Below, piece by piece: positions 8,352 to 53,700 of a DNA stretch of 64,000 nucleotides. A program made the position numbers and the translations under genes. Positions within the stretch are counted from its first letter, which is position 1. The number at the start of each line of letters is the position of its first letter. Source of the stretch: Watersipora subatra. Taxonomy: Eukaryota > Bryozoa > Gymnolaemata > Cheilostomatida > Watersiporidae. Under the pieces are notes generated by a model. The model was not told the DNA's origin. It saw nothing but the letters and a program-made list of their open reading frames with translations, and searched no databases. The DNA lies in the NCBI RefSeq assembly GCF_963576615.1, contig NC_088715.1, positions 51,376,007 through 51,440,006 on the forward strand, given 5' to 3'.

Positions 8352-11300
8352 GTGAGTATAATATCAATTTAATTTCTCTGTTGCCATTAAATGTATTATT
8401 GTGAGTTAACATGAATACTAAATTGAATGAACTCTGAGGCCTGCTATCATTCATAATAAAAATGTTTTATATTGCAAATTTTTTAAAAGATTATGCATTG
8501 GTTATTGCTCTTCACTGGGTGATTACACAAAAGGGCTTGAGTTTGTGAAATTGTTTTAACAAAATCACCACACATCATCGTCTCATTGCTAACGTATATG
8601 GAAAAGCCATGAAACAATCACTCTTATAACTTTTAGTCAGATGTTTTCTGTAACACGAAGTTTATTTTTAAAGACTTTACTATGTTAACATAGCATGCTG
8701 AGGGTTTTATGTTTGGAGTTCAGTAACTTCAATTGTTTTCGCTTTCTTTCACAGACATATATAAGTGGCTGAATATTGTTGAAAAAATGAATAAGATTTC
8801 TTGAAATGTTTTACTAATGATAACACGCACTAGAAAATATCCAAGAAATTTCAATTATACCCATATTGAACCACAAAGACTATCAAAATTAGTTGCTGCT
8901 GGTAGTGCTGTTGCTCAACTTTCAGCCGATACGTAATTTGCCATTCTTATATATTTGATAAAACTTTTCATTGTTACTTTTGCTTTTCAATATGTAGTTT
9001 TAAGTACATTGCTGCCAAACAGTTGTTCTTTGATACTTACTCTGAACAGAAAATGTAGACTTTTAGTTCATTAGCTATTTATGATTCACGTTGGATACTG
9101 TCGCAATTTACATTGATCAAGCAGGTCAAAAATATATAGCTAAGCCAAACATTTCTATTTATATCGTACAGTTTAGGTAAGCACCGATCAGTGGGAACCA
9201 GGTTTGAGTGTTATTTCTGTAGCCTTCAAAAGGTCAACCATTGTCTGCTGCAGGAATATGAAGAGTAGTGAGGTAGAAGGTCGTACTCGACAACTTGAAG
9301 AAGAGAGCAGGCAAATGGAAGATCGATTAAAAGAACTTAAACTCACCATGAACAGGGAAAAGGAGTTGAGAGAGTGAGTTATGTTCCCACTTTAAATAGA
9401 TATATAAAATGCTGGCTGGTTGGATCATCGACTAGTTGTTCACTATACTACTGCTACTCAGTGCTCTCATGTCATATACGCTCATGTCTATGTATTCTCG
9501 ATGCAGAGCATTGACCTGTTGACCTGTTTCCCATTTGATACCTTATAAATGATAGGGAATGCAGTTGTGGACTACTGGTTTAGAATGCCTGACCTTCAAA
9601 CAACGGGTTGGGATTCAATTCCCAAAAAAGGCTACTGGCGATGACAGGACTGACATCCAACTTTAAATTGCTCTTTGCAACTGGACGTGTCTCCAGTCAT
9701 TGAGGTTCCCTGGTTGCCAGCCTCAGTTGTATCCAGGCGAGATAACAAAGATATTTTTGTGCATCAACCCTGTCAACAAAACACATGCTGTTCAATATGA
9801 AAGGAGTTGCTCAGACACCCACAGTTATAGTAGATTATTTTGTTGGCTTGTTCCCGTTTTTTTAGCAATAGTGCTAGACGAATATCAATGAAGGATTTTA
9901 TAGATACACGGGTAAAATCTTGGAGTGCATCTAAAACTGGAGAAGTGTGTTATATTAGAACTTGTGTTGCGCAACGTATTAACAATCATAAATTGATGTC
10001 GGCTGGCTTCAAATTGGTTGAATAGATATTTCTTTAAGAGGTGTTGTTTTATCTCCTCTAGAGGTCAGTTTTTTGTCTTTTCTACATTCTTAGAAAAATG
10101 AGATTAGACAAGTGAGATAATTTTATTAACCTTTTACGGTGATAAACCTAAGATTCGTGTCTACTAGAAGTTAGTATCTACTAGCATGAGTTAGTATCTA
10201 CTAGCAGGAGTTGGTAGCTACTAGCAGGAGGTAGTATCTATTAGCAGGAGTTAGTGTCTACTAGCAGGAGTTAGCGTCTACTTGCAGGAGTTAGTATCTA
10301 CTAGCAGGAGTTAGTATCTACTAGCAGGAGTTAGTGTCTACTAGCAGGAGTTAGTATCTACTAACAGGAGTTAGCATCTACTAACAGGAGTTAGTGTCTA
10401 CTTGCAGAAGTTAGTATCTACTAGCAGAAGTTAGTGTCTACTAGCAGGAGTTAGTATCTACTAGCAGGAGTTAGTATCTGTTAGCAGGGGTTAGTATCTA
10501 CTAGTAGGAGTTAGTATCTACTAGCAGGAGTTAGTGTCTACTAGCAGGAGTTAGCATCTACTAGTAGGAGTTAGTATCTGCTAGCAGGAGTTAGTATCTA
10601 CTAGCAGGAGTTAGTATCTACTAACAGGAGTTAGTATCTACTAGCAGGGGTTAGTATCTACTAGCAGGAGTTAGTATCTCCTAGCAGGAGTTAGTATCTG
10701 CTAGCAGGAGTTAGTATCTACTAGTAGGAGTTAGTATCTACTAGCAGGAGTTAGTATCTACTAACAGGAGTTAGTATCTACTAGCAGGGGTTAGTATCTA
10801 CTAGCAGGAGTTACTATCTCCTAGCAGGAGTTAGTATCTACTAACAGGAGTTAGTATCTACTAGCAGGGGTTAGTATCTACTAGCAGGAGTTAGTATCTC
10901 CTAGCAGGAGTTAGTATCTGCTAGCAGGAGTTAGTATCTACTAGTAGGAGTTGGTATCTACTAGCAGGAGTTAGTATCTACTAACAGGAGTTAGTATCTA
11001 CTAGCAGGGGTTAGTATCTACTAGCAGGAGTTAGTATCTCCTAGCAGGAGTTAGTATCTGCTAGCAGGAGTTAGTATCTACTAGTAGGAGTTAGTATCTG
11101 CTAGCAGGAGTTAGTATCTACTAGCAGGAGTTAGTGTCTACTGGCAGGAGTTAGTATCTACTAGCAAGAGTTAGTGTCTACTAGCAGGAGTTAGTATCTA
11201 CTAGCAGGAGTTAGTATCTCCTAGCAGGAGTTAGTATCTGCTAGCAGGAGTTAGTGTCTACTAACAGGAGTTAGTATCTACTAGCAGGAGTTAGTATCTA

Positions 11301-14300
11301 CTAGCAGGAGTTAGTGTCCACTAGCAGGAGTTAGTGTCTACTAGCAGGAGTTAGTATCTGTTAGTAGGAGTTAGTGTCTACTAGCAGGAGTTAGTATCTA
11401 CTAGCAGGAGTTAGTATCTACTAGCAGGGGTTAGTATCTGCTAGCAGGAGTTAGTATCTACTAGTAGGAGTTAGTATCTACTAGCAGGAGTTAGTGTCTA
11501 CTAGCAGGAGTTAGCATCTACTAGTTGGAGTTAGTATCTGCTAGCAGGAGTTAGTATCTACTAGCAGGAGTTAGTATCTACTAACAGGAGTTAGTATCTA
11601 CTAGCAGGGGTTAGTATCTACTAGCAGGAGTTAGTATCTCCTAGCAGGAGTTAGTATCTGCTAGCAGGAGTTAGTATCTACTAGTAGGAGTTAGTATCTA
11701 CTAGCAGGAGTTAGTATCTACTAACAGGAGTTAGTATCTACTAGCAGGGGTTAGTATCTACTAGCAGGAGTTACTATCTCTTAGCAGGAGTTAGTATCTA
11801 CTAACAGGAGTTAGTATCTGTTAGTAGGAGTTAGTGTCTACTAGCAGGAGTTAGTGTCTACTAGCAGGAGTTAGTGTCTACTAGCAGAAGTTAGTGTCTA
11901 CTAGCAATTTATATGTCCATTATTTTTTACACTGCTGTTTTGGCCTGGACGGGAGGATATCCCATTAACCACTTGAGTCACTTTGTAAAGCAGATTATAG
12001 CTTTTCTTTTTACCTTATTTCAGTACATAATGAATGTGTGTTCTATTCATTCAGGCAAAGAGGAGGTGGTCATTGGAAGTCTGGCAAGGAAGGGAATCTG
12101 AATTCTCATGCTAAAGATGTTTTGAAGAAGGCTCCAGTAAAACCAAAGGTAAGGGTACACAGTTTGATAACAGCATCTGAATGTGTAGAAAGGATCATCC
12201 TTTACTGCGAGACTGCATTTCAGCGAGGTAGTCAAGCATATTATTATACTCTATTTCCTAATCTAATAGCGATGTTGCTGCAATTACAATGTTATATTGC
12301 ATTTGCTTGTTTCCAAAAGGTTATCAAAAGTTTACATTTGTAACTCTCTCATCTCAGTTTGATCACGATGATTCTTTCTGAGTTGTTTTCTCTCAATTCG
12401 TTGAGACGCACTCACCTAGTTAATCTTAGTAGTTGTGTTCACTTTATTCTTTAATCTGCACATTTATGCATCATATTGTATTAGTGTTGATTTCATTCTT
12501 GGAGTTGTGCTTACTTTGGGTAATTTTTTAGTTGCAGCACTAGGAGCTGCAACTAAAAAGCTCCAAAGTTTTTTGGAGCTGTGCTCACCTTACTTTTGAA
12601 GTTGTTTTCACTTTGAATTAGAGTTGCATGCTAGACTGCTAGTCATCATAAATTTGTCTCAGCTCTAAAATTTTAAGAGCGTAATAAAGATATATCATAT
12701 ATCCCCACTCCTTCGCTTTCATACTAAACTACCAACTTTTTAAACATGTCTGTTAAACCCACTCAATAATACCTGATTTTAGTCTATTCATTTTTTTTGG
12801 CATTTAACGAAGAACATCATTTTGATGATGAATACCGATGCTAATAATTAGTAATGCATACATATTTTTGCATTTCCTATGCCCTACATATTTAACAAAA
12901 CATTTTAGTATTGTACCATATATGTGAAAATAATTAGAAATTGTCTCCCTACTCTCTTTTGATAAACCTAGTTTTTTCTAGCGGTCATGACGCCATTGCA
13001 GAAAACAGCCTTTCTTTTATTCAATTGCATGCTTATATAGCTGTTTACCAGCATCACTTTTCAAATCAATACGTGGTTGGGTTTTTTCAGTACCTATTGT
13101 AACGTCACGGAAAGGTGTTGTCACAGTTTCTTCCTGTACTCTGAAACCATATCAAAAAGGTCTAAACTTGTACATGACCATTAGTCTTTCTATAACATCT
13201 GCATATTTATGTAAATCATAATATGTTTTGATCATATCTATATATAAATATTAAAGTTTGTGTGTGATTCTGTGTATTCAGCTATAGCTATTAACATCTT
13301 GGAATGAAGAATTTGTATCACAGAAGTTTTGAGCTTCGCGAGATTGATAGATTTATCGGACTACATGAGTCGATATATGGGTGAAAATATGCATAGCGCT
13401 ATGCTTTACGCAACGTAATTAAGCTTGCTCTCACTGCTCTTACTAGTAAGTTTACTAACTAGCTTACACAAATTAGCCATTGGCAATGTGCCAGGCAAGT
13501 GACAGGCAACTACATTACTTGTCACTGTTTATAAGCTGATTTTTAATACCCGTCCAACGCTGGACATTCGGCTAGGTATAATATAAATAATGATAAGAAT
13601 AAAATGTTCTTCTAAAATGGCACTCAGAGAATCCTCCATCAGTTGATTGTAAAATTATATTATGTATTGTACTGCATATAAGTAATAGTAATTATTTGTT
13701 TGTTATGAATATCTATTGAATAGGTATTCTATATTAGAATAAATCTAAAAGATAATCTATTTATCAGCATCATTTCTCAAATCGATATATGGTTGGGTAT
13801 AATCATCGCCTATTCATGCTTGCTAGGCGTGTTACACAGGGTTCTAGCAAGGGGCGTAAGGTAAAAGTACTCAAGGATGAGCCAGTCATTTCATCTCCCA
13901 AAACTAAGGACAAAGCTAGACCAGGAACTTTAGCATTTATAGCCCAAAGAGATAACAAAAAGCCGGGCCTTCGTCCAACCGGTCCAATATGCGGACAGTG
14001 TGATATCAAGTCTGCAGTGACAGTAAGTACACTATGTACTATCAAATGCATTGAGAATATGCATTCAGTTCATTGTGCAATTTTACTAAATATTGAGTTA
14101 TTGTGCAGCACAAAAAATCAAAACAAATTCATTGTAACTCATAAAAGCTTCTGTGAGAGAAACTGATGAAATGTTAGTAAGGTAAGACAATTCCCAGACC
14201 AACAAATGTTTAGGTTTTACAGTCTTACGATGTGACTAGTATTGTTTAGTTTAGTATTTTAGAATGCAGATATTTTATTTAATTCTTCAGTGTTATTATT

Positions 14301-17300
14301 ATTTTATCTCAAGTCCTTGTTCTAATCATTTGAGGTAAACCAATAAAATAAAATTATGTTGAATAGCACATGTTTTTTAGAATGTAGATGTTCTGATTAA
14401 GTCTTTCATTGTTATCATTCAAGCTAAGGAAACTGAGTCGGACAACAGATGCCAGGCAGCTCGGATCTGAAACTCTTTTATAGCACTTTTTGGGCATCAC
14501 CATGAGATTCATAACATAAAAATCTGGCTATAGCATAGCAGATGTCAGTAATATTAACAGTAATGAAAACTATTAAACGTATTAAAATGTAATTAAAAGT
14601 AATAAAACTAACAAAAGTTTATTATCTATAAAATTATTAGCAATTTGTTTAATTGCCTTTTTCAGTTTATCAGCCCTTTTGTTTGAATTAGCTGGTCTTG
14701 ATTTGTTTTACTCAACGAGTTCACATTATACCTCCCCATAACTATCTTTATTTTACACCCTAGTATCCAGTTTACAGGCAGTGTCAAGGAACATAATTGA
14801 CAGTGCTAAGCTTTTTGTATTTTTTCTTGCAGATGTGCCAGGAATGTTCAGAGGTGTATTGTTCCGGGTGTTTTACTGCCTTCCACCTCAAGGGAGCCCT
14901 TGCCAAGCACCACTCTGTCCCTCTCTCCAAGATCACTGCAACTCCCAGAGGTATCCACTTTTCTTCATCTATGTGACTTACAACTATGACCTGTTTTACT
15001 GTCTACTAGTTACACGTTGAAATAGCTGAAAGCTGAAAATCTCCTGCCACGGCCAAGGCTGAAACTCATACCACTTATACATGGCATGGAAATACTGAAC
15101 TCAGTCTAAGGTGGTGTGAGTCTATGGGCTACATTGTAGTACCTAAAACATGACATGCAAAGTTTGTTCATTCTGATGTTTGTTTCGTTTGTTGAAACTC
15201 TCATAATTAGAATACAATATATTACTAATTTGTTTCAGACTCAAAAACAACAATAAATATTCCAAGTTATGACAAATAAAACTAAAATAAATGCATTTTA
15301 TGAAACTATATAAAAATTTGTATGTAAACTTATAAATTATATGTAAAAACTAAATTATTACAATAAAATATAGTAAAGAAGGTTTTGGTTTGCTACTTTA
15401 CTTAGATACAAGTAAGCAGGTAGCATTTATTTAGCAACTATAGGTTACTATAGTTACTAAGGTTAACATATTGTTCTGTTAATAATTTGTAATGATGATT
15501 GATTTTGATGATTTTTACCAGGAGGTGTTTGTGTTAGATAATTACTATGGATTTCTATACCACCCTATACAATATTTTTACCTAATGATGCCAACACTGA
15601 AACAAATTAAAATCATATAATTGTATACCAAATAATTTTTCATTGTAATTGTAACAAAACAGACTATGTTTAGCCATTACTTGCTAATAATTTCACATTT
15701 ACATTTAAACACCTTTACAGTTTTATCTTTCCTCCTAATTTATTTCAACAAAACAACAGTCTTCCTTCTTGAGCAGAAGGAAGACTTAGTAATGAGTTGG
15801 TTCGACGAAAGTTATACTCCTTGCTGTAATTCTCACTAGCTAAAATTAACTTAACTTGTATGAATTTTTATTGTTTTTGTTTTATTTTTCTGTAGTCATC
15901 CAAGAAATTACGAACGAAAAATTATAGAAATTATCTTGTATACCAAAACAGATATTTGCTTACCTAAATATTACATTGTACATAGAGTACATGTAGGTGT
16001 GAGGTAGATGTAAGTAGAGGTTTGACTTTATGGATAAAAATTGAATCTGATTCACGAGATTTTTCATTTTAGTAGCTTCATTTAGTAGTAGTAGTAGTTT
16101 TAGTAGTAGCTTTCATTCAAAGTAATGATTTATAAACGTGCTAATTATTTTATATTTTATTTATATTTTACATTTAAACATCTTTACAGTTGCTTTATTT
16201 TTTCTCTTAATTTAATCCAACTGCAAAAAACACTTTTTATGGCATTATAATTATTTAAAAGTTACAATTGTTTGAAAAATTTTGGAAACCTTTACAGTTG
16301 TCTTATTTTTTTCGTAAATCATTTGAAATGCAAAAAAACCCGTTTCTCATATTATAAAGTTTGAAATTTAGAATGGTAACTGTTGTGTTATATGTTAAAT
16401 AAAAATTAATTTTCTGCACAAAGACTTTTTTATTACTCAGGCAACATCGAGCATTCACCATGTATCTTATATAGTAGATTAGATACTGTAAGATGCTCCA
16501 AGATGCTGTATTAGGTATCTCCGATGTAAGCTTGAGGATGTGACAATATATGGCTTTTAGGACAATAAAATAAGATGGTTTTAAGGCAATAAAATGTTTC
16601 TTGCAGAAACAATTTACATTTCAATCAGTTTTCCAAAAACCTTTCATACAAAAACTGCATATATAAAGCATGAACAGTAATTGTGAGCCACACTTTGTTT
16701 CACAATATGCCCAAAGATTTCACTCACTGTTGTTTTATCATAATCATGGTTGTTTTTAAAGATTACGCAAGTCATTGGATAAATTTTTCTTTGCTTTGGT
16801 CTATATCACTTTTATTGGACCATTTTTAAATACTCGATGTGGATTGGCAGACGCATAAATCATCATTTTATTGTTATTTCTATTAGTATACTGGCAGTTC
16901 AGTGTGCCGTGAGAGATCGTCATGTGTAATAACTATGTGCACAATTATTCCAAAATGTGGCAAGATGATTGACCGATGCAGGTTGTAGTGTGTTTGACAG
17001 GTGATCCGAATGTCTGAGATTCATTCCTTTGTGTTGTGATATTTTTTCCGAATGTCGAAACATGGCTTTGGCCGGATGTACACGGTCCTTATTATAGTAA
17101 AGACAAGATTAATGCCCGGCATTTCACGAGTAATAGAATACAACTCATGAACAGTGGCAGGTAATGTGGTTGTTATAGGCTAGGTTGACTAATTAGCCAA
17201 TGGCAAATTTAGCTAATTTGAGTAACTTAAGCTAGTAACTTAAACGTATCTAAACTTTTACTATAATAAGAACCGTGAAGCCAGCTCGTAAATGTTACAA

Positions 17301-20300: not shown

Positions 20301-23300
20301 TCACCCACTTTGGTTTGTATTCACTGTTATACAGGGCATTTTAATCATTGCCTGAGTTTATCAAAGGCATCACCAACGTCTGCATTGTCAGCTGCGGTAG
20401 AAATGAGGGATGTGGCTTTGAACGGGCAAAACAAGTAGACTACAGATAAGCTTTCTGAACATATAAAATAAGCTCTGTAACCTTTGACCTTATAGGATTA
20501 TATTTTCTAAATATCGCATTTTGATCCCAGCTGATAGCCAGATGCTGCCTCATGAAAATATTTCATTCAGCAGTTTCTAGGATGCTTTGAACAATTTAAA
20601 ACCATTAAAAATTTTCTCCTAATAGTCTGACTGTTTGACTAGTACGTATTTGCCAGTATTTACTAATACATGCTGTCTTCTGAGAGGAAAGAGATATTTT
20701 GATTTAGATAGCGCAAATCAGTGTTGCAAAAAACATGAAAATGGTTTCAAGACAACACAACATACCCACCACACACACCCACCACACACACACACCCACC
20801 ACACACCACCCACACATACTCACTCGCCACACGCACACCACACACACACCACACACACATCCACCACACACACATCCACCACAGACCACGCATACACATT
20901 CACCACACACCCACCTACCACACACACTCGACACACACACCCACCACACACACCACACACACTCGCCACACACCATACACACACACCTCACAGACACCAA
21001 GCACACAATGACAAAATGGAATTTATAAATATAGATTGTCGTGTAACAGTTGGTCACATTAATTTCAGATGCCAATAGTTCAGCTAGATTTATTAGCATT
21101 ATAGGAATGAGCTCTTGTTTGATTATTACAGAATTATAGTACTAGAAACCAAAGGCAATCATCACTTCCAACTTATTTTTAAAATGCTTTTCTCAGAGAA
21201 TTCGGAGTTGTGTGCCTGTCAATTCATAAAAGTCTTAAGGTTGTATAGATCTCAGCTGTAGTTAGCATTATCAAGCGGATTGTTTGTATCACACAGGAGT
21301 GAATGTGGACGAGGGTACTAGCACCCTTCAAGGCTCCACTAAACCCGCTACTGACTACCAACCGGAATTCACTTCCTCTGAGCTCTCATATGCAGAAAAA
21401 CTTTTGCTAAAGAAAAACAGAAGGTCTGTAGTGCCATCCTTGACCCCAACACCTACAGCAAATCAAATTAATGGCTATATGGTTGACCACTCAGGCAAGT
21501 GTTTCTTAGCGATCAGTGCGAACCCACCAAATGTCTTGAAGATACAGGTTGGTTTGCTGGTAACAACAATTGACTTCAATAATTGATGTGTACACCTTGT
21601 GAATAAGGTTGCTAATTCCACCTGTTGAAAGCCACGCGAAGAGTATTAGGAAAAACAATAGCGCTGTTCAGGTATTGAACCCTGATAATCATATTCCCAG
21701 CTAGGTGCTCTACCACTGAACCATTCAATCACCTTTCAGCAAGAAGGAATAATAGTGCATATGGTCATTACACATGATACTGCCAGCATACCAGTATAAC
21801 TTATGTCTCTACATGCAAACATTGGTTGTCTGTTAGACCAATTATTATAATAGACTTTGTAGGTAGTCATTGCAAATGTGGACCTTGCTGTTTTTATCTA
21901 ATGTTACTTAATCTGTGAACAAAGATTACGCTCTTTCATAATTAAGTAGTACCCTGGCAGCCCTGGAGATTGTCATGTGTAATAGCTATACGCACAATTA
22001 TTCCTAATGCCATGCATGGCCGTGAAGCTGAATTTACAAGTTTGTATGCCATGTAAAGCAGTCTGTTTTCCTAACATCCAACCATTGCTTCGAATGGACA
22101 AAGCTCTCACTATAGCAAAGATTATACTTGCGTAGGTGATGATTTGGATGGGACGGAGTTGGAAGAACCCATCCTATTTGAAAACATATTGGCTACTGTT
22201 CAGGAGTCTAAGCAGGGCTATGATAATTGTTTGAATGGCTTTTCAACCACAGCTCTAGAAATTGAGGAGGTTTCCGAAGGAGAGGTTAGCACAGTTATTG
22301 TTTATAATTGTTGAATGTATTTGATGAATTTTTCGTATTGCGTTTTTCTCATTGTTAGAACTGATACTTTATTATTTTTACATATATCATGGTATATATT
22401 TATATATTACATATTTTATTTTTTCATATTATTCATATATAGTTAGCAATTACATTTTTTATTTTGAAAAATATCGTTTTTAAAACTGTAGCTGATAATT
22501 TTTGAACACATTATCACTGCCTTGTTCTCTTCACGTATTGACAGCCTCATACTACGAGTGACAATGAAAGTCATTACCTAGTCTTTGAAGATGTCATTGA
22601 GCCGAAGAAAAATTCGAGTCCAACAGAGGAAAGGTAAGAATAATCTATAGTATATATCATATATCTTTCCTAGTTGATGAAGTCGTGAGACGAGTCGTCT
22701 GATTGTACCGCTTATTTCCTGTGTTGGCATCTAAACACTCTGCTAACCTGAAGCAGATGGGCTTTTATAGAGTGAGGATTAGTGAGGGTGTGATTGACGG
22801 TATGAATGGGGTGTGAATGAGGGTGTGAATGGGGGTGTGACTAAGGGTGTGAATAAGGGTGTGAATAGGGGTGTGAGGGGGGGGTGTGAATGAGGGTGTG
22901 AATAGGGGTGTGAATAGGGGTGTGAATAGGGGTGTGAATAGGGGTGTGAATGGGAGTGTGAATAGGAGTGTGAATAGGGGTGTGAATGGGGGTGTGACTA
23001 AGGGCGTGAATAGGGGTGTGAATAGGAGTGTGAATAGGGGTGTGAATGGGAGTGTGAATAGGAGTGTGAATAGGGGTGTGAATAGGAGTGTGAATGGGGG
23101 TGTGACTAAGGGTGTGAATAGGGGTGTGAATAGGGATGTGAATGAGGGTGAGGTTGGCTTACGCATTAATCAGCTCTTGAGAAAAAGGCCCATTCTTTGA
23201 TATATACTTTCATCATCAGTGCATATGAAAAAACAAAATCTGTAATGTCAAAACACAAAGCTGTCATACATGTATTTCGATATAGCACCCAGTAGGTAGT

Positions 23301-26300
23301 TTGTCCAGGATAAAATATTTGTTGAGCTATGCTAGCCTTCATGCACAGTTTGTTGTCTGCACATTTATGAGTTATTGATTTTAGAGTTTATCCCACGGTT
23401 GTGCCAGCACCAACTGCCCTATTTCAAAAGAACCTTGCACCATCTGTACTGCAGTAAGTTTTAGTCATTAACTAACTGAATGACGAGCGTTGCCTGGGTA
23501 AAAAAAGTTTATATACAGTGTATATAGATTATTATGTTATTGTGTAATAACACATAATTTGTCTAAATATTAGGCTTGACTCTTAATAGCTGATATGTAC
23601 AACTGCATTAACTTAGTATGGTTTTAGCACCTGACGAGTGTGGTTTGCTCAGATTTGAAGCTGTGCTTTTGATTTTACTGTAAACCATACGAAACAATAT
23701 TGTAGTGCAATAAATTTTAGTCTCTGTATAAGTTGTTTAGATTGTTATGTATCATTAAGTAGAGTCTGGCATCATGGTGTATCCCCAGTAAGCTCATGCT
23801 ACATTTGTGATCGTGTTTATTTAAAATGTTCACATTATCACAAACCCATCTGTGTTCACATCAGCTAATAGTCTGTGGTATAACGTTCTCATTTTACAAT
23901 GTGGTTGCTGAAATACTAGTCCCGCAACAACTACCATGAAGGGAAAGATAGATCACGCAATTTGAAACAGTCGTTCACCATTGTTTAAATGCTGTGTATT
24001 GCGCAGACTAATATTTGAAAGTTTGACAGCTGCAATGTTTTCTGACATCTCTGCGTTGCGTCGGTGATGCCATCGTCATGGTGATGCCATTGTTAAGGCA
24101 TTCACATAATCTATGAATGATTATGATGCTGTGTGTACCAGGCTTTAAGTTTGTAATGGATGTCCTACTTTTAAAGGCTACAGAATTAGGGTACACGGGA
24201 TGCATCTGAATTATAATCACAATTTGAAGAGAAATATGGTAGTTTTTACTTCGATTGGGATACATGATGGTCCCCAATAACAGAGTCAGAGAGGGCCTGT
24301 TGACTTCTTGACCTGTTGAGGATAAGTGAATACATGGTGATGCATTAGCAAACCATTGCCAAAGGTGTTTATTAATATTCAATATTTTTAGAAATATTCA
24401 ATATTTAATGCTTTAGACCACTATAAGAGAGTGTCAGAGTGGCCTGGTGATAGCACATCGACTGTCAACCAAGGGCTTGGTGGTTCGAGTCCTGCTTAAT
24501 GTCGATCTGACAAAAAGCTCTCAGCGAGCTTTCAACCCTAAATTGCTGGGTCTTTCGGATGTAGACCATAATTTTGAGGCCCCGTAAGACAACTGGCAAT
24601 GTGGGCATGTTAAAGATCCACATCTGTCCTTCACACATTGGGCAAGTGAAATGGCTACTTGGCTCTGTCAGACTGGATGTGTTGCAATGGTATCCCTTCA
24701 GTTTAATCTGACAGTTCCAGAAGTGGCAATACTGCTCGACCCAAGCATGCATCGCTAAGATGCAAGTCGTTGTCGATTTCCGACAGACAGCAAGCCAGAC
24801 CACGATAACTGAATGCTTGTTTTATGTGTCGAAAAATGTTATATCGCAATTAACTATTCACTGGGAATTCATAGAACAATTATCGTGTCATTCTCATATC
24901 GCCAAACATAGCATGTAGGAGATAACTTTGAGTTTATAGCTGCACATGCCTATTTGGTACCCCATTCTTTAATAGATATGTTTTTAATATTTTGTCATGC
25001 ATACCATCAGGGTAAATATAGGGAATCCGATAGAATTTCCAGTTTCAATTGTGACAATTCCATGGATTCTCTCATTTACCAATCATCATACTATCAATCT
25101 ATAGGACTAACAATCGTCGTACTATCAATCTATAGTACTAACAATCATCGTACTATTACTCTATAATACTAACAGTCATTGTACTATCAATCTATATTAC
25201 TAACAACCATCGTACTATTAATCTATAGCACTAACAATCATCGTACTATTAATCTGTATTACTAACAATCATTGTACTATCATTCTATAGTACTAACAAT
25301 CATCGTATTAGCAATCTATAGTACTAACAATCACCGTACTATCAATCTATAGTACTAATAATCGTCGTACTACCAATATACAGTACTAACAATCATCGTA
25401 CTATTAATCTATAGTACTAACAGTCATTGTACTACCAATCTATATTACTAACAATCATCGTACTATTAATCTGTAGTACTAACAATCAACGTATTATTAA
25501 TTTATATTACTAACAATCATTGTACTGTCAATCTATAGTCCTAACAATCATCGTACTATCAATCTATAGTACTAGCAATCATCGTACTATTAATCTATAG
25601 TACTAACAATCATCGTACTATCAATCTATAGTACTAACAATCATCGTACTATCAATCTATAGTACTAACAATCATCGTACTTTCTTGTTTTCAGAAGGGT
25701 CGGTGGGGAATCCGTCTCCTCCAGTCTAGAACTTGTTGATATCAGTGACTCAATAGATATCAGCAAACCGGCATCCGCTAGGAAGTCAACGAGAGCACGC
25801 ACCCCTCACAAGCAGGTTGGGGCTCATAAGACATCTCCTTCTGATAGGCAAAGAGCAGAGAGTCGAAACTTGAGGCCAGCCAGTGGTTTAGCGAGACCCA
25901 AAAGCAGAAGCAATACGTCATTTCACAGAGGTTCACGGCCTCGAACTGCTGCAGAGAAGGCAGCAGACATTTGTGGGTGAGCAGTTTTAATATATATAAT
26001 TGAAGTTGGGAGTAGATTTACCATTTTGTTATGTGAATTACGTACATGAAAGGTATAGGCATAATTTTTCCAGTGTCAGTCATGTCTGTCGGAGGTACTA
26101 AGAGCAAGCAACATAATGATAGTATTTGTTAAGTACAGAAATGTAAATAGAAATAGACTGGAGTTTTGAATGTTTATAGATTGCTTTCTGAGTTTTTAAG
26201 AAGTTGTTTAGTTGCTGTACTTTGTTGAGCTGAAAGGTTGTCAACTTCAACCAAACTCGTTTGTTCTTTTTAATACTTCTATTTATATCTAAATGCAACA

Positions 26301-29300: not shown

Positions 29301-32300
29301 TAACTTTAGCCACTTTGTGCCTGGTTTGGTTTTCAGTATAATTCTGAAGTTTCAAATTGATTGGCCAATTAGTTTCTGAGATATCAGGAAATTACTGTAG
29401 GCATTTCTAACCGACCGAGAAATTAAAAATGGCTGCTGACAGAACATTAGTTTCTAACAACACACTGATTGAAATTCTTAGTAATGAAGGATCAAAATTA
29501 GACAAAGCTAGAAAGCTTCTCCTCTTCAGAAACAAGAACTTCACACTAAAACCATTTGTTTTTCAAGTCCTAACAAATATCAGACTTCGTGTACTGCAAT
29601 CAACATGTTTCTTCAACTGCCTCTAAAACATCACTTTTTCAAAAGAATGTAAATTAGATTAGATAAATGTTCAGCATTTTACAGGTAATAAAATAATTAC
29701 CAAATGAATTTGAGTAACTTACCTGGTAAGTTAGTAATATAAGCTAGTAAAATCTTTACTACAGTAAGAGCCGTATCAGAAGTTAACTTAACAAATGTTG
29801 GGCGTAATGATCAACTGTGCTAGTTAATAGCTTTAAGCGTGAGTATTTTAACTGATGTAATGAGTGTTTTCACAATCATTCATCAGTATGGTCAGTTGGA
29901 CAGCGTAGCATAGTGGATTAGTTTGCTAGTCTGCAGACCTGGAGGTTCCGATTTCAAATACTTTGTGAAACGGATTTTTGTTCTTAAAACTTTATCGCTT
30001 ATAACTGGGCAGACGAATGACAAACACTGAGATTTATAAATATAGATTAGGCTTTGGACTGTTAATAGTCTGGATCCATACTCATTGAAATCGACTACAA
30101 TAGGTAAGGAGGCACCGGTCAACCCCATTCAAAATTATTTTCTATGGATAATTTTTTGTTGACCTGCCAAATATCACACATTTTCTGTCAATGATCGCTG
30201 TGACTGCAAATCAGTTTTAATTTTCTCCTTGATAACTAATGTAACATTTCAGGGTTGGTACTCTTACGAAACACCCGTCTCCGTCCCTTACTGATCTCAT
30301 AGCCAAGTACAAAAACTCAGGCCAATCTCATGGGTACACCAGCAATCAAGGTTCAGATGTCTTAGCTGGTTTCTTCACCGCTGGTGTGAAAGCAGCGTTT
30401 ACAGAGAGGACGCTGACTCCACGAAAAGAAAAGCCTCAGTCCCCTGGACAGCCTCTCAAAAAGCATCAAATTAGCAATAAGGGTGAGAGTCAAGGAAAAG
30501 CTTGAGCTATGGACAACCTTGTTGGGATAGTTTTTGGTCCAAAGACACCCAAATAGGTTTTTAAGGTCAAAAGAACCAGTGTAAAGGAGTTGTCTTCTCA
30601 TTTTACTGGTCTGTTACAATAATAGTTTTTTATATTAATTACAACTTGTAATTGACACTCATCGATTAAGATAGTCTTGTGTTGATTACTTCAATATCTG
30701 ATGTTATGTGTATTTTCTGTAATGTTAGCAGCATTTTCGTTAGCTGATAATATGATTATTCACAGCTGCCTTTTTCAGTTTACACCCTCGGCAGCAAATC
30801 ATGGAGACCCGAGAGTAGTCTTGGAGGGAATGTCCAAGAGGAAGAGGTTAAAAAGATTTGGAACGAGTTTGATTATTCTCAGGTGAAAAACAAACCTATA
30901 TTTATTTATTTTATAATCATCATCAGCAGATAGTCATCTGTAATAAGTACGTGCGCAATTATTTCTAGAATTATTTTCCGGAACATTCTTGGCTGGGAAT
31001 GTGAATATTAGGGTTTCATTCTTGTGTGTTACAATTCTGTTCCTAAGGCTTTTAGCGTGGCTGCAGGTGGACATGGGACATGGTTCTTATTATAGTAAAG
31101 ATTATAATTACATTATAATCCAACCTACAGTGTTTTTGTGATGGCTGCGATTACCTGTTCGTTTTTGAGCTTTTAATCACATTTTCACGTATTTGGCACC
31201 TACAACACAACAGAGTAAGACATGGTGAATCTTTTCATATCAAACAACTGTAATGTGAATTTTATTGCAAGTCAACCTTTAAGCTGACCCAACACACGGG
31301 TATTGTTCTAGTAAAAGTTTTAGTAAGGATCCAGCTTTCTATTTCTAGGTAAGTTACTTAAATTCATTAGGTAGTTCTATTGCTCTTTATAATAAAGAAT
31401 ATAACATTCAAGAGTTATCATTCATTATATATACTAGTTGGATAACCATGTAATTGGTTGTCTCAAATATGCTATACATTCATTTCAGTTTGTTTGGTTT
31501 GTTGAAAAATAGTACATTTTTAAATTAATGCACATTTCTCTCACAGGATGTTGCACACTTTAATGTGCTTTTTATTAATCCTTTTTACACGCATCTGATG
31601 CCTTTGTAGTTGGAGAAGGTTGAACCGCCTCCAGAAACTACAATAAGCTATTCTTGGTCGGCTAGCCAGTCCTCAGGGGATGCAATTCCAAACTTTGCTA
31701 CTGAGCAACAATCATTTGCTGTAAATGCTGCAGAGGCATCCAATCTAACCAACCCTATATTTGACCGAAATATCCCCAGCTATTCTTCGACCAGAGGGAA
31801 TGTTCAAGGCTCTCCTAGACAATCAGAATCAGGACTGGGAGTTCGGCGGACCAAAACAGAGTATACCGTGACAAATAGGACTGTGGTAACACCTCGCCGG
31901 AGTAAGACCCCCCTCAGTGTGCGATCACACACCCCTATTGGTGAGCGAAGCCATACACATGTGAGCAATAACCATATAAACATAAACCATATACACATGA
32001 GCGAAATATACATGTGTTACGACTGCTTATTGGCTGTGCGATTTGCTGACATTGAAATTGGTTTACTAGATCCGATGTAGATGGGACGTGGGTGGTGGAT
32101 GTTTAAAAAACCTGATACATACAGTTTACCTGTTACATGCAACATGATAACCTGATACATGCAATCTCCATGAGTTCAAATTCATCTGTATGCGGAGTTT
32201 TAAATCCAAGATTTTAATAGCTATAGCTGGGCATACCGAAGGAAAAACATAAGACATACGACTAACTTTGAGAAATATATATAGATCACCACAAGTGCGT

Positions 32301-35300
32301 AACGTGATCAGGCGGTTTATGTCATCAGTTGATTGCTCTCAGAGATCATTAAACCACTCTATAAACTTCTAGTTGTGTTCATAGTTGTGGATGGAGACGA
32401 CATGACACGGTATGACAATGTTGCACCGATTGGAGATCAGGAAGATATGGATACCATGCATGACCTTGAAGTGGAGTTGGCCTCACAGACTGGCCGTCTC
32501 ACAGGTATGGTACATAGTACTATACGACTGACCATATGTTGCAATTCAAATTTCAATTTTTGAATCTCTGAACTTACCTTGGATTTTTTCAACTGTTATT
32601 TTGTTTATTGGTTCTCATTTTCAGGGCGATTCTCCATTGGCTCTTTCACTCTTTCTCTTTTCTTCTTTTGATTGTCTCTGCCTTTTTTTCTAGTGATTTT
32701 TTTTCTACTTATCCACTCTCTTTCTTTTTTTTGCTATCAATTTGCTCTTTCTCTGCTGCTCCTTCCGGTTTTTTTCGTAACATGCTTCCGCTGTCATGAA
32801 TTTTTTTTGCATGAGCAATCCCTCAATGATTGAGTATGATGTCTGCTTAGCGCATGCAGAGGCTGGGTTTTTTAAGAGCACAAACAGTTGCGCTGCGATA
32901 TCGGCTAGACATCTCTAAGTTCAGCAGTTAGGGAATCTCGACGACTTGAGCTATGCTCAGTTTCTTTATATATTTCGTTAAAATAATAATGTTTTTCTAC
33001 TCCTAGCTGATGGATCTGTGTCTCGACTCTTGTTAGATTCAAATGATAATGAGGAAGGCACCATCAGCCCCAAAAGGTCACTGACCCCTGACACACACCG
33101 AAATATAGACAGGCTCAGGTTAAGTATTAGTATTCACTCCCCTCTTCTTGAAGCTTAAAAAAAGGTTTTCTCTGAGAGGCATATACCATGTTTATAGCTG
33201 GATATAGTCTTTCACGCATTGAATATCCTCTAAGGTATTTTCAATAGCAGATCTCTAGAAAGCATACATTTGCTGTATGTTAACGCATTAGCTATTTAAT
33301 TCATCTACAATGGTTTTTTTTGTAAAATATTCAAACAGGACAATGGCTAGATTTTCCTGTTTAGTGGAATCTTTAAAGAAATAATCAAATTCTCTCCTTT
33401 ATTTTTAGGATGGCTGTTTTTTTTAGCAAAAGTGTGTTAGCAATATGAACATTTTGGAGATTTAATGAAACTGTAATCTGATTTGTACAACTACATTTCA
33501 TCTAGACTGAGGCACTAATAGGGGAATAATATATTATATAATATAATACATATAATATTACTAGCTGTGCTGCCCGGCGTTGCCCGGGTAATAAAAAAGT
33601 TTGGACAGAAAGTTGATTTGTATTTAACATATAACAACATTTCCCATTTTAACTTTCAAACTACTCATCATGAGAGAAGTGTTTTGTGTAGTTGAAATAA
33701 ATTAAGAGTAAAATAAAAACAACTGTAAAGGTTTTAAAACTTTGTAAAACAACTGTAACTTTCAAGCTTTTAGCCTGGCACATTGCCAATGGAAAATTGC
33801 AGTAAGCTGCTGGGCTTCTAATGACGGTACTCCATGACATTGAGTCAGCTTTGATGTCTAGCAACAGTTATTCTAATAATAGCTATAGCCGGAATGCAGA
33901 CAGACATACGGACATACTTTGAGAAATATATATAGACTAGCTGTGCCTCCTGGCATTGCCTGGGTATTGAAAATCAGCTTATAAACAATGAGAAGTGATG
34001 AGATTTGCTTACCACTTGCTGGTAGGCAGCTCTCCAGCAAGTGCCAGGCCATTGCCTAGTGGCCTGGCACATTCCCAATAGAAAATTCCACTAAGCTAGT
34101 TAGTAAGTTTCAAATGCCGGTAGGCAATGACATTGCGTCAGCATTGTTGCCCAGCTAGGCTATTCTAATAATAGCTCGAGCCAGAATGCAGACAGACATA
34201 CGACAAACAGACATACGACAAACAGACATACGACAAACAGACATACGACAAACAGACATACGACAAACAGACATATGACAAACAGACATACTTTGAGAAA
34301 TATAGATATAAGATATATTATTATATTAAAGTTGGGTTCACACACTGTCTCTGCTCATCTTTGTTTAGCTGGATTTCCAAGATTAATCAAGTCAAGCATT
34401 ATCATTTTTATAACACTTCTTTAACACCAATGTTTCCTAGGTTTTCTGTCAGGTTTGCTCGTGAACGTCAACCAATGTGAACCAGGTTTAAGCAAAAATA
34501 GGATATAAAAAAGTCCAAACTCGCCGATACTGTAAATCTTTGGAATAAGTACACATGTTCATGACGCAATGTGGAATTGTGGCATCTCTATAGAAGTAGG
34601 TAAAATATGGTAGGGTTAGATGTTGACATCACAGATATACATTATAAAGAAGGAAGCTACCCATCAAATTAGCATTGTTGTTCATCTAGGTCATATCTTA
34701 GCCCATAGCCAAAGATTATTATCCAGAGAGGATCTCGAGATTATTGCAAATATTTTCAATTTGTTTGTAGATTTTTCGAAGATTTTACTTATAATTTATA
34801 AATGTGGCAGTATTATTCTCTCTTTCTAACATTTAATTGTATTTTTGTTTATTACTTTTGACATTCTTTGCATCCTTTTATATTGTTAACGGGATTTTCA
34901 TTCAAAACTGTTAGTCATTATGGATGAAAATTGACTCTTTGTTTTACAAAAACGCAGATTATGACAAGATATAAAAATAAGACAGTTTGGTTGACTGCAG
35001 ATTTTGTGACAGTTGATCATCAGTCATCACCATGTTATTTGGTTATCTCTTATGTTTACCACTTAGGGTGATAATGGATGGAGTACACAACTACGATATA
35101 TGTTTTCATAGTAACTTCCAAATATCTCATCCACTCATGTCTTATCAAAATTTACTTATATCGTTACTCATATCTTGGCAAAATGTCTTGTCATACATGT
35201 CAATACCTTCTGTGTCCCAATTAAGCCGAGAATTTAGGAAGCTATGATCTTACACATGCTTAAGGTGTAGAAATAATCAGACATGTGTGACTGCTATGTA

Positions 35301-46789: not shown

Positions 46790-46822
46790 ATGCTGGGTAG
46801 AGCGGTTTTGTGCAGCTCCTAG
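46790..46822 (+). promoter_or_regulatory. Short upstream ORF before the ADCY9 start
   Basis: An ATG at 46790, just after a possible acceptor (ATGTTCTAG|GGATG), opens a 10-codon frame ending in TAG at 46820. It is out of frame with the main start at 46843 and ends 20 bp before it. If this is 5' UTR, it could lower main-ORF translation. Whether the region is transcribed is not shown by the sequence. Confidence 0.35.
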
Positions 46823-46842
46823 CCCAGAATCACAACTCTCTC

Positions 46843-47772
46843 ATGGAGGGCAACAATAACCGCTTCCTTTCACATAAGGACCACCATCTTAACGGCTCTA
46901 ACAACCATGTTGAGCAGATTGAGCTACAAGGAAAACATGCTTCAGACAGAAGACGAACTTCTGGAAATGCCGGGAGTTGTGTTCCTATACTGTTTGAACG
47001 CTCGAAATACGGCACTCTAAATCCTGGCTTTGACTCTCTTATACTCGAACATTATTTTCAGGAATGCTTTTTTCCTCATAATCGACGCAAGTTTCGCTCG
47101 GCTCTCGGCTATATCATTTTCTCTTGTCTAGTCTGGATTATTTACTTTGTGGTTTTAAGGCAGGTAACGCAAATTGACACCCAAATGGAAAAGAGACAGA
47201 GAATCTTATTGGAATATATAATCGGGACTTGTGCATTGCTTGTTATCTCCATCATTTTTATCATTCTCACCAGGTTTGAGTCGTACGCCCGACATTACAC
47301 CAAAGTCTCAATAGTTTATGCTCTCGCCCTTTGCGGTGTTTCCCTCCTTCGCTTTATCTATTTCGACTATGACTACTCTCCTATGTCGTCAGTTGGCTCC
47401 TTCGCTGGTCTCGTACAGATTGTCCTTTTGTTGTATAACCTTTTACCGTTACCTTTCTACTGGGCATTGCTTATCTCAATCCTCTACTCTATCATATATG
47501 AAGTGTTGTTCCTTCTCTCACTGAACGACCCTAGTCCCTCCTACATCGTTGGTCGGGTTTTACTTCTCATATGCGTGCACCTGCTATGCATGTCACTCTA
47601 TCTCATGGCCACTGTTAGAAAGCATTCGACCTTTTCACGGATCGGGCAGTCCACACGGGCCCGGCGGGCTCTGAAGAAGGAGAAGGAACAACAAGACAAT
47701 GTCATCTACAGTCTGATGCCAGTCAAGGTTGCCAAAGAGGCCATCAATAATCGAAACAACGATAAGCAAGAG
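46843..47772 (+). CDS. ADCY9: ADCY9 exon: N terminus and six-helix M1 domain
   Basis: This is one uninterrupted 310-codon exon ending AAGCAAGAG|GTATAG, phase 0. It has [13 protein letters not shown] before the first helix, six hydrophobic segments, then a basic stretch ([14 protein letters not shown]) and the conserved pre-catalytic [11 protein letters not shown], equivalent to the L-x-P-x2-VA motif of cyclases. It is more GC-rich than its flanks. A large first coding exon holding M1 is also seen in vertebrate ADCY9. Confidence 0.92.
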
Positions 47773-50700
47773 GTATAGTGTCATTACTATTTTCCTAATA
47801 TGTTTTTCTTGTATGTACTTGTATCCGTATGAGTTTTTTTTATAAACTTGTTAAAATTTTATTCTCATAAAATCATTTTGTATATTTGTGCAAGGCTGGA
47901 GGCTGGAAAAAAATCATGATTTTTTTCAAAAAATTTGAATTTTTTTTATTTAATTCGATTAAATCAAAGGCCTTTATATAGCGTGGTACTACCAATGCAG
48001 TCAATGACCTCCGTCGTACTTGTTAATTCATGGCAGAAGAGTGTTTATACATTTATTACACACATAAAAACAAGATTGTCAGAAAAAAATGTTTTTACAA
48101 AATATGAAAATATAAAAATAATCCGGATTTTTTTCCAGAAATTCCCTGATTGCAACCAAGATTTAAATCAAGGCATTGAATAATTTGATCTTTTTGAGCC
48201 AATCCTGGTTTTTTGTAAACTCGGCTTCTGATTTTCTAATTTGTATATTTTAATTTCTAAAGCTTCAGGCGCTTCAGCAAGCCGATTATTTTAATGTGAA
48301 TGATTTTATTGCACTTTCATAATAATTTTAAAATTTTAATGATTTAACCATAATAGCGAAGTTTAATTTTAAAAGTTTAATAGAAAAGAAATTCAGAAAG
48401 TTTTTATAGTAGTTTCAGAAAATATCATCCACTCACGTCTTATCAATATCTCGACAAGATATCTTCTGTTTCCCAATTAAGCAGAGCATTTAGGAAGCTA
48501 TGTCCTTACACCTATTTGAAGTGTAGAAATAATCAGACATGTCTGGCCCCTTGTATCACACAACAACGAGGTGTGACCTATATATATACTTGTAATAGAG
48601 ATACTACTTCCCGCCTCAACATGGTTATATTGTACATAAACCTTTGGGTTTTAGATAAGCTTGTAGGCAGTGAGCACCGTTAAGACTCCTTAAACAGACA
48701 ATCATAGTAGGTTGTCCACCGACAATCATGTTAAAGTTCTCTTACCTTGCTACTTGTGACCTTTTTATCTTTCAGTGAGTGTCTATTTGGGCAACCGTGC
48801 AAATTCATTTCTTCTGAACATTGCTCCACTTCATAAGGCAGCTGTGAAGAAGTTATATTTGAATTTTGCTCATTACGTGTTCTATCATTTGACTTCGTCA
48901 AATGAGCTGTTTTGGTATGCCATAACATTCCACCTCAGCTTATATCTAACACTCTAAAGAATATTTTCAATTTTAGAAATTGAATCATTTCGCTTCATTT
49001 TCGTAACTTGTTTGAGTGTGCATATCACATAATATGTATAGATATGCCAAGTAGACACGTAAACTAGAAAATAGAGCATGTCAAACGTCTTTAATACACA
49101 TAAGAGTAGGGTTAGACACCTCGTTGCTGTTTGTTTTTATGCGTTGTTAGTATTTACACTACGAACAGGCTTCAAGTAAAAGCACAATAGCGATATCCCT
49201 TAAAAACACGTAGATTGTGTGCAAACTGAATAGCCCTGTGTCTTTGCCTGATAGCTTTCTGAGCCAACAAAGACACCGTTGATTGATGCTGCTGTATTGA
49301 ATGGTCAGTGACAGCACTTCGGCAGCAGCTGGCTGGTGTGCAATGATTAGCGCAGGCTTTTAAAGGTTACCTAACCTAATGTATAGGGTTATCCGAGAAG
49401 GTTGATAAGCAGCCTCTCCCGCTTGTTAGTCGACTCTCTTCCTCCGACTCTCTTCCTCCGACTCTCTTCTCAGTCTTTTTGTTACTAGAAATGTATCTTT
49501 CATCGATAAAGCTTTTTATGGCTGATGGCGAGTGAGATATGCTGACACAAATAACTATTTATGGTTAGGTATGCTTTTTACGACATCCGTTGAATGTCTT
49601 GGCCATTGGAAGACATGACGGTTATGTTTACTAGCCAATTGTGTCTAATCAGTTATTCGAAATTATTGTATATTGATAAGTTTACAAACGACATCCGTGA
49701 ATCAATTTGCATTAAACATAGGTTGTTAGTTTCAAATTATTGAAAATACTCGGTGTCCGCTGTCATTGAACTCGAGGCTTATTACAGCTGATCTTTTTTC
49801 AACCTTGAGATTAACTTCACATAGCTATGTGTAAGAGTCTCAATGTTTGTGTTTTGTGAGCCGAGAGAAGCTGTACTTGCTGTTAAATTTAAGGTTTCCT
49901 GCTCAGCATGCAGGTAGTAATGATAGTTATACAGCTCAGCCGAATGTACTTTCTCGCAGCACTTAGGTATCAGCAGCAATATCTTTCAACATTTTCATAT
50001 CAAGTTTTAAGCAGTAAAATTTTGGAAAGTTGGCCGAAAAAGCACAAAATAATGAAGCTACTACATTTGCACTGGACACGACGAGCTGTTATTGTAAAAT
50101 CAGGCACAAGGTTTTTTCTCAACGTTTGAACTCAGTTGGATTTCTTTTATAAATGATTGTATGTAATTATAAACTAGTTATAAACGCTTCTTTATGATTC
50201 CTCAAGCTCAAAATTAATGGCTAAATCTGGTTGTACTTTAAGAACACAGTCAAACCTCTACATGCGAAGTTGGGTCGAGATATGCTGTCCGCATTAATAT
50301 GTTGAAGCACATATTGTATGTTGAAGCACATATTTTTATTAGATTACATTGCATTTGTTTAATTCGTTCCACAGTCCAAAATTAGGAAAACTCCTTAACA
50401 AACTCCGGAGACCATTGCGCGTAGCATTAACACTGTTTAACAAACTGTATATGAAAAACAGCATCTTCAAATACTGCACTATTTCTCAATAAAATGAGAT
50501 CTTTATCGCTACTTTGCTATTGTTGTAACTTCTGTAGTTCTGAGCCAGGAGTAACTAAAGCACCTGTTAGAGAATGTCACCTACACTGGCCATATAATGA
50601 TGTTTGTATACTTACTTGGCATTGTGATATTAGCATGATTATACTTGCGCTAGATCACTATACATACAAAATAAATATTTGTTGTCATCAAATTTCTACT

Positions 50701-53700
50701 CTGAAACGGTTTATATTATATAGGCAACTTGCATCTACAGCAATCTTTGGGAAGGTTTCTTTGAATAATATTGACAGCTTGTTTTGGTCAGCACAGTTTT
50801 GGGACGTTTGCAGTTTGCAAGGGCTTGTCTAGAATAAATACTTTCAGCAATTATTTTATTCAAGAAGTAGACCGCGTTGTGTTCATCTCTATTAGATTGA
50901 AGGCTATGGTGGTAGCGTTAAAAAGCATGCTGAAATTTCGCACATTTTTCAAATTTATCCAAAAAATCGTATTAATCCAAAATATCAACCTAAATAAAAA
51001 AAATCATAATTTTCTGCAACTCTGTGCTGAATACTACTTAGATTTTTCATCCTCATACAATAATGTGTGATTATTAAATGTTTTAATATTAATGTTTTCA
51101 TCTATTAAAGTTGGTGTTTAACAGGCATGATAGAACCTGTAAAATAGCTTTCATTAAGCGATGACAACTGGTTCAGTCAGCTCGATGCAAAAACAGCATT
51201 GAAACAAGGGGGGATGTTGGTGAACAGAAGTCTTGTTAGCAAGCTGTCTCGTTATTTTGTTCTAGTAATGAATTTTTCTATCGCTTTACTGGAGCAAATA
51301 TATGTACTGATTGGCGTATGCGTGAGTTCAAAAGGTTTAATTATCTACAAAACTTTATGCGCTTGACTGTTTTTAGAAATATAATGACAGGCATGTTAAG
51401 AGACACAAACGTGACTATAAGAAATCAATGATATTATCATGAACATTAGCAACTTGTATGTTGTACTCGGTAATTTGTCTGCCTTTCACGATTGTGCATA
51501 TGTTACTGTCAGAGTAATATTTCACAGTAACTGTGCATACTGAATGTTTGCTATTACTGTAAGTGTTTCAGAGTAACTATACAGGTGTGTGTGCGTGTGT
51601 GTTGTGCTGAGTAACTACACGCATGTCTTTTCTATTTCTGTGGGCTATGGTTTTTGTTCTACAGTAACTGTTCATACCTGTAGCTATGCATATTATTGTC
51701 ATTTTACAGTAACTACATACATATGTATGTTACAATCGCTCAACAAGTTCAGTTCATCATTTGCTTCTTGTTACATTCTCTCGAACATTCGTAACAGGAT
51801 GAGAGCGGAGAGAGAAGTGGGCCAGAAGGTGTGGAGAGAGGACAGATCGTTTTCAGGCAGTTTACCATGGATAGGATGGAAAATGTCAGCATTCTGTTCG
51901 CCGATATCGTCGGTTTCACCAAGATGTCTTCTAACAAAACAGCTGAGCAGCTTCTGAAGTTACTCAATGAGCTCTTTGGCGAGTTTGATCATTTGAGCGA
52001 TAAGAACAATTGTGAAAAGATAAGCACCTTGGGTAAGAGGTACTTGCTGTTTGTTTTACAGAAATTTGGTTGCCGACAATGAACTTGTGCGCAATCTGGA
52101 ACATAAACAGTCTCAAGGTTGTATATGTAGTTCTTATCATGTTGAAAAATCAATCGAAACCTGACCGAAGTTTTCAAGTTTGTAGCCATTTCTTCTGCAT
52201 GTTGAATAAAACTGGAAGGAGGAAATATGACTTGGCATCAACGTATTTTAGTTTCTATTCACGTTTATTATCTTTTTATGATTGCGGATTTTCTCGTCTT
52301 ACCAACAAAAAGCCGGCTTTCATAGCATTTATAACTGTTTATGACCGTTTATAACCATTTCCATGTTTCATACAATTCCTACGAGTGACATAGGATTTTA
52401 TATAAAAAACAAACATGAAGGAAGTCCCATTTGGTTGACGTTCTCATGGTAGGCTCAGCTTGTGACCATTGCGATGCGGCCAATAAAAACGCATGACTCA
52501 CGAGGATCAGTTTTTTATGTTTATACACAGATGCTGACGCCAGCATATTATTTGCAATATGACGATGGTGCCGTGACTGTGTCATCTCTGCTTTTAGAGC
52601 TCACGGCTTGAGGTGGAAAACGTTTTGTATATAGTCATTGTTCAGTTCAGACTCGATTCGATGTTATACTTGTGAAGCAAGAAAGTTAAAGCTGTGCATA
52701 TGGCATTAAAGCTGTCATGCAATATAATTTGTTTACAATCTTCGCTGTAATAGGATCAATATCCATCTGTCTGTCCGAAGAGGTTAACCCTTAGAGGCTA
52801 GGAAAAGAAACTCCTTTCTTTCAACGGCATTTAAACTTGTAGCTTTGTAGACAGACACGGTGTTTTTATGCCTGACGATCTCTTATGGCACACGGGCTGC
52901 CAGGGTGCTAGTAACAATTTATTAGAGCTTTTCAAAGTTCATTTATCAGTAAATTACACAAAATATTCTTGTTTGTTTGTTTGCCCGGTATATCAGGTTC
53001 AGACCAGACGCGTGTTCAAAAAGTAGCTGCAAATGACTGACAGTTTTCAAAACTTAATTTTTTTGCCAATAAAAATGAGAGGCAATAAATGCATAAAACA
53101 GTTATATGGTAATTGGACTTGCCTGAGATCTGCCGCAATTAATTAAACCCTCTAAGCTAATTATCAGTTTTAATGGAGTTGTATTCTCTATGCGAACACT
53201 ACGAAGCTGCTAGGCAACATGACGATAACATAATGTAAATGTATTTGCTTAAAGCAACAATGGTGTTATTAAACAGAAAGGCATGGGCTCCATTCTCCAT
53301 GTCAACTGTTCTAAATTTGCTTTGTTTCACTTTTAGGTGATTGTTATTACTGTGTGTCCGGTTGTCCCATTCCTGACCCGAACCATGCAAGAAATTGTGT
53401 GAATCTTGGGCTAGATATGGTGGATGCTATTCAGAAGTTTGACAAGAAACACAGCGAAGAGGTGAATTTATTTTCAACACTTGGTTACGTAGCACTGTCT
53501 CAGGACCTGTAGCGGTTTCTGTTGTACGTCAGCCTCTAGAACTGTAGCATCTGTTATTGTTTGCGTCACTTGCTCGCTCCGCAGCATCTTCTATCGGTGG
53601 TATTCTCTCAAGACTTGCAGCGTTGGCTGTCTCTTTCTGATTACCTGAAGCACCATCGGGTGCCTGAGACTTGCGTGAGCCCTGCAGCACCTTCTGGTGC

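Follow-up and report, generated by a model that had tools for sequence, protein, structure and literature searches.

A minisatellite that runs almost to the start of a coding exon, and whose repeat unit ends in a TACTAAC-like word, raises the question of whether a tandem array can supply the branch point of an intron and, if so, what its many other copies do. Such an array lies in the window, a 64-kb stretch (G000:C8:51376007-51440006) of the 784-Mb genome of Watersipora subatra. TRF places it at 25080-25681, with a period of 31, 19.4 copies and 86% matches, and alignment in register gives 19 full units at 25081-25669 with the consensus AATCATCGTACTATCAATCTATAGTACTAAC. The features around the acceptor are the following.

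25081..25669, plus strand: 31-bp minisatellite of 19 full units, each with a TACTAAC-like branch site at its end (TRF and register alignment).
25670..25681, plus strand: partial 20th unit, 12 bp.
25661..25662, plus strand: final decoy AG of the array, immediately before the last TACTAAC.
25663..25669, plus strand: last TACTAAC, the putative branch site, with its branch A at 25668.
25681..25694, plus strand: pyrimidine tract and acceptor, TTTCTTGTTTTCAG; 15/18 upstream bases are C or T.

The first-pass annotation had described TACTAAC in most of about 20 copies. The 31-bp unit and a copy number near 19.4 hold, but the exact word is present in 14 of the 19 full units rather than in about 20; CTAAY is present in 18. 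Of the last four units, the first two each deviate from the consensus at 1 base and the final two match it exactly. Units eight apart differ by 2.8 on average versus 4.3 for neighbours, and their greater closeness points to a duplicated 8-unit block within the array. A genome-wide search for the unit, allowing up to 3 mismatches, returned 16 matches, every one inside 25080-25681. The word itself is more widespread. On both strands of the window we counted 100 TACTAAC against 12.0 expected by chance (sd 3.5): the 31-bp array contributes 14, every one plus-strand, a second array at 10169-11906 contributes 74, and 12 lie elsewhere. The second array (20 bp x 87) sits between early exons of the same gene, and its TACTAAC are mostly minus-strand (64, versus 10 plus-strand); a TACTAAC array is therefore not unique even within this window. 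Rfam and tRNA scans of the 64 kb returned nothing. An interspersed repeat lies upstream of the 31-bp array, at 24425-24815; it contains a stretch resembling a tRNA promoter, looks SINE-like when judged by eye, and has at least 40 or so other matching places in the genome (at least 41 rows including itself).

The argument depends on the acceptor at 25694, and thus on the exon that follows it, numbered 12 in the first-pass annotation. The exons that make up the model downstream of the array are listed here.

25695..25976, plus strand: coding exon, 282 nt, GC 0.51, open in 1/6 frames, donor TGG/GTGAGC at 25977.
30253..30482, plus strand: second exon after the array, phase agrees.
30779..30882, plus strand: third exon after the array, phase agrees.
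31610..31940, plus strand: fourth exon after the array, phase agrees.
32385..32504, plus strand: fifth exon after the array, phase agrees.

The acceptor looks real because the frame is open, GC is raised (0.51 vs 0.36 for the window) and all four junction phases downstream of the exon agree. For the upstream side of this junction, the search turned up no partner exon whose donor has the right phase; the ORF at 22075-22314 was considered as that exon and rejected, as it has no good donor of matching phase. The identity of the gene comes from two exons further upstream.

13840..14022, plus strand: exon with the first half of a B-box (CGQC), the basis for the ZBBX-like name.
14833..14910, plus strand: exon with the remaining half of the B-box; its start and end are approximate.

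Joined, these two exons match the ANCHR-like B-box zinc finger (PF22586, E 2.4e-8), and because of this split B-box we call the gene ZBBX-like. The name ZBBX itself goes back to the first-pass annotation. Pfam searches of six single ORFs of the gene gave no family above its cut-off. The window also contains an adenylyl cyclase gene on the plus strand at 46801-57871, with AC_N and Guanylate_cyc exons.

The acceptor AG is at 25693-25694, behind a tract of 15/18 pyrimidines whose longest run is 7. The array had been said to stop 12 bp short of it; the end is indeed close, but 11 nt separate the TRF end at 25681 from the AG dinucleotide. From the branch A at 25668 to the G of the acceptor there are 26 nt with no intervening AG, just as originally proposed. 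The AG-free zone upstream of the acceptor begins exactly at the last TACTAAC (25663), right after the AG at 25661-25662, and it holds only that word, the partial unit and the pyrimidine tract. Because of this content, the array most likely supplies the branch point for acceptor 25694, a conclusion that is strong for one drawn from sequence. Array sequence takes up the whole interval between 13 and about 614 nt before the AG, and therefore the branch point should fall within the array, barring a very distant site that skips many AGs. Other As of the AG-free zone may act as branch points, such as that of CAATCAT at 20 nt from the AG, which is also inside the array. The last unit is nevertheless the best branch site for this acceptor, in line with its earlier description as the ideal branch point.

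The word is complementary to the GTAGTA of U2 snRNA, which we found within GTGTAGTATC in 4/4 U2 genes read, of 46 U2 gene matches in the genome. TACTAAC is generally the best-pairing branch site for a U2 with GTAGTA, and since the genes read carry GTGTAGTATC, it should be so in W. subatra as elsewhere. As to the genes themselves, 40 of the 46 matches lie in a single cluster (G000:C8:57321634-57450771), many about 1.5 kb apart. TACTAAC is not the ordinary branch site of this species. It was absent from the last 60 nt at all 77 predicted kinesin acceptors and from 10/10 other candidate acceptors of the ZBBX-like gene, some of these ten being uncertain.

We consider it probable that the array is a minisatellite at the 3' end of the intron, comparable to the mirages of lancelets, that was born from the branch region, and that its last unit supplies the branch point while the other copies are passive. 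A 31-bp stretch containing the intron's own branch region would have been tandemly amplified, and the amplified array would now occupy the intron end as far as the pyrimidine tract. By the branch-to-AG rule, SF1 and U2 would act on the TACTAAC in the last unit, since no other optimal branch site has both a path to the real AG that is free of AGs and a good pyrimidine tract along it. The 18 other units would be by-products, mostly ignored by the splicing machinery; they would cost little and do nothing necessary because the AGs next to them have weak tracts.

Two other readings give the extra copies something to do, and both can be weighed against the units themselves. The array contains 18 AGs. 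An AG had been claimed for every earlier unit; it is found at the TATAG place in 14 of 19, and units 3, 6 and 14 lack any AG. The claim that scanning from the earlier units would meet decoys does stand: 17 CTAAC sites precede the acceptor in series, and for the 16 upstream of the last the next AG comes at 25 nt in 10 and at 15-56 nt in the other 6. Unit AGs used at some rate would give alternative exon starts, and these counts would suit such a source of cryptic acceptors. The tracts of the decoys are weak, however (10-12/18 pyrimidines, runs of 2-4), and an in-array AG used as acceptor leads to a stop within 2-21 codons in 18/18 cases and to a frame shift in 14/18, upstream phase 2 being assumed from the frame of exon 25695-25976 itself. 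We thus regard use of these AGs as very unlikely, and with it a useful role for the cryptic acceptors that had been suggested inside the repeat. The array AGs look like tolerated decoys. It is somewhat easier to imagine, and still unlikely, that the array is functional, with tandem UACUAAC sites concentrating or holding back SF1 and U2 so that array length tunes exon use. The tandem UACUAAC repeats of the Gomafu/MIAT lncRNA are reported to surpass other branch sequences in SF1 binding and to delay the splicing of a weak substrate in vitro (PMC3116199). In our array, however, conservation of the TACTAAC columns does not significantly exceed that of the other columns (5 of 133 cells changed; permutation p 0.15 for all 7 columns and 0.075 for CTAAC), which leaves the suggestion that the array makes the 3' splice site robust unsupported as regards the extra copies. 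RNA structure speaks against the functional reading in the same way.

25646..25665, plus strand: hairpin predicted for the last unit, a 7-bp stem of 25646-25652 with 25659-25665 whose 3' arm contains the decoy AG.

A hairpin whose 7-bp stem takes in the decoy AG can form in most units (-6.2 kcal/mol for the last) and 89% of stem cells pair, but there is no covariation among units, with 0 pairs changed on both sides, and the GUACUAU/AUAGUAC stem was rejected as functional. Unit palindromes were also rejected as a general rule of arrays in this genome (z < -2 in 3/14 arrays, mean z -0.38). A functional array would further be at odds with the lack of a clear genome-wide sense bias, given below. 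The extra copies are probably passive.

The stronger challenge to an origin from the branch region is that an ordinary minisatellite spread to the acceptor and displaced an older branch site, its unit happening to hold TACTAAC. We find this plausible, if short of probable. A chance array next to a branch site would look no different, and the density of arrays allows for one: in a small sample of ten 4-kb stretches at round coordinates (TRF score limit 50), 8 arrays with a period of at least 7 and at least 4 copies covered about 7.6 of the 40 kb, or about 19% of sequence. TACTAAC arrays are common on both strands of the genome. Three TACTAAC at short distance gave 8555 + 7395 matches, against 3236 + 1736 for the reversed word, these figures being matches of which there are many per array. 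The mostly antisense array at 10169-11906, in the very same gene, also fits a chance neighbour. Nor is the sense arrangement clearly commoner before acceptor-like sequence. Two TACTAAC followed by TTTNCAG at 12-30 nt gave 14 matches at 11 loci, the ZBBX-like array included, and an antisense TACTAAC pair before TTTNCAG gave 43 matches at 14 loci. At 4 of these 14 the motif lies within the unit, and at three more (L053, L057, L058) it is an apparent unit variant at the array end; since it is thus part or variant of the unit at up to 7/14 antisense loci, the fair comparison is 11 versus 7-14 loci, with no clear sense enrichment. What argues against chance is that a perfect site at the ideal distance is an extra coincidence where typical acceptors lack TACTAAC, and on balance we prefer amplification of the intron's own branch region. 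Separately, a class of TACTAAC arrays before acceptors was considered and rejected: at none of the 10 other sense loci does a clear coding exon follow the AG, a judgement made by eye that could miss short exons. Of the antisense loci, 10/14 were fetched, the four with the motif inside the unit being left out, and 1/10 (L052) shows a peroxidase-like frame of 48 aa, judged by eye with the same risk of overlooking short exons.

Arrays of any sequence at exon edges were surveyed in kinesin genes. The acceptor sample consisted of the 321 bp before each of 100 of 131 exon matches (31 were left out), and arrays of at least 4 copies were counted at a TRF score limit of 40. Nine of the 100 stretches contain one, and in four of these it extends to or past the match start. 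Arrays cover about 5.7% of these stretches versus 4/100 at the acceptor, and the closeness of the two figures means that arrays neither clearly avoid nor are clearly attracted to acceptors; 23 of the 100 stretches lack a confident acceptor by our in-house score, including L174 and L175, which were judged by reading frame. With 4/100 kinesin exon starts having an array at the acceptor, the ZBBX array is one of a recurrent class of arrays reaching acceptors in this genome. At L176 (G000:C7:43205030-43206200), 39 bp x 7 stands before the kinesin P-loop exon. Its six upstream units end in TTCCAG or TTCTAG; its last is the most changed (7/39 bases) and the sole unit with a branch-like TTCTAAT. The TTTCAG of this last unit would be the acceptor of the P-loop exon, judging by frame, where the score had picked another AG (index 283). 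At L175 (23 bp x 10.4) the AGs that fit the open frame are all inside the array by eye, and in both L175 and L176 the acceptor AG is part of the unit. At L174 (52 bp x 15) the AGs fitting the open frame are likewise inside the array by eye, and the array seems to enter the exon. At L113 (G000:C2:23025700-23027300), 42 bp x 15 with the frame open throughout runs to the kinesin exon; the acceptor candidates are TTGCAG/AAAGCC, 12 nt after the array, or a copy inside it. Should its copies contain acceptors, each step upstream would lengthen the exon by 14 codons. For donor sides we took 14 kinesin gene stretches, chosen for compactness and overlapping the acceptor sample, at a TRF score limit of 50; their 28 gaps between neighbouring matches hold 6 arrays of at least 4 copies. 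Those of L184 and L185 begin no more than about 40 nt downstream of a likely donor and that of L183 begins 25 nt past the end of the match, and donor sides are therefore affected too. The 21-bp array of L185 (G000:C2:17325570-17327650) begins some 6 nt downstream of a likely GC donor (GAG/GCGAGT) of its kinesin exon.

Acceptors in this genome thus tolerate arrays up to or through them (4/100 kinesin exon starts sampled), so the lancelet mirage idea, with its proposed link to new introns, is testable here by RNA reads alone. Within the ZBBX-like gene, the 17 serial CTAAC sites, with a decoy AG at 25 nt for 10 of the 16 upstream, offer a natural experiment on branch-point and AG choice. It is also conceivable, and to our minds rather doubtful, that tandem duplication recurrently starts at 3' splice sites, giving branch-only arrays (ZBBX), whole-acceptor arrays (L176, L175) and acceptor-plus-exon arrays (L174, perhaps L113 with its 15 in-frame 14-codon units). 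If true, minisatellites would arise at splice sites with particular frequency, and the resulting arrays would form a stock of spare acceptors and new introns, which goes further than the published lancelet cases.

Minisatellites have been linked to splicing signals before. A minisatellite in IFI6 (6-16) reportedly offers multiple donor sites for splicing (Nucleic Acids Res 1995); the ZBBX array resembles it in supplying a splicing signal many times, but the signals there are donor sites, whereas here they are branch sites directly before an acceptor. Canestro 2002 is also cited on the lancelet mirages. Like the repeats of Gomafu/MIAT, our array has clustered perfect UACUAAC words, putatively able to bind SF1. 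Unlike the ZBBX array, which by our exon model would be intronic and hold the branch point of its intron, the Gomafu words are exonic and proposed to act in trans; a sponge of that kind is not what we found. In C. elegans, an intronic minisatellite has been linked to multiple alternative splicing, and the available part of that paper mentions neither branch point nor branch site (PMC4039745). The closest counterparts are the mirages. In lancelets, these are described as tandem repeats with units of 10 to 160 bp that include the intron end with its acceptor and the exon start, as in Adh3, globins BflGb6/9, TnC and PGBD5, and they are reported not to disturb splicing (PMC3087553, PMC3902484). 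Instability of length is a further trait of mirages. It had been stated that no tandem array supplying a branch point was described; we found no description of a branch-only unit in the open-licence literature, but the mirages were already on record. The ZBBX array shares with them a minisatellite-like make-up, a place at an intron-exon edge and a splice signal within the repeat (31 bp x 19.4, 11 nt from the AG). Its unit, unlike theirs, holds the branch region only and no intron-exon boundary, the array ending 11 nt before the AG, and on this count the kinesin arrays are closer to true mirages than it is. The ZBBX array stands beside the mirages as a branch-only variant, in which the branch site is repeated and the acceptor lies outside.
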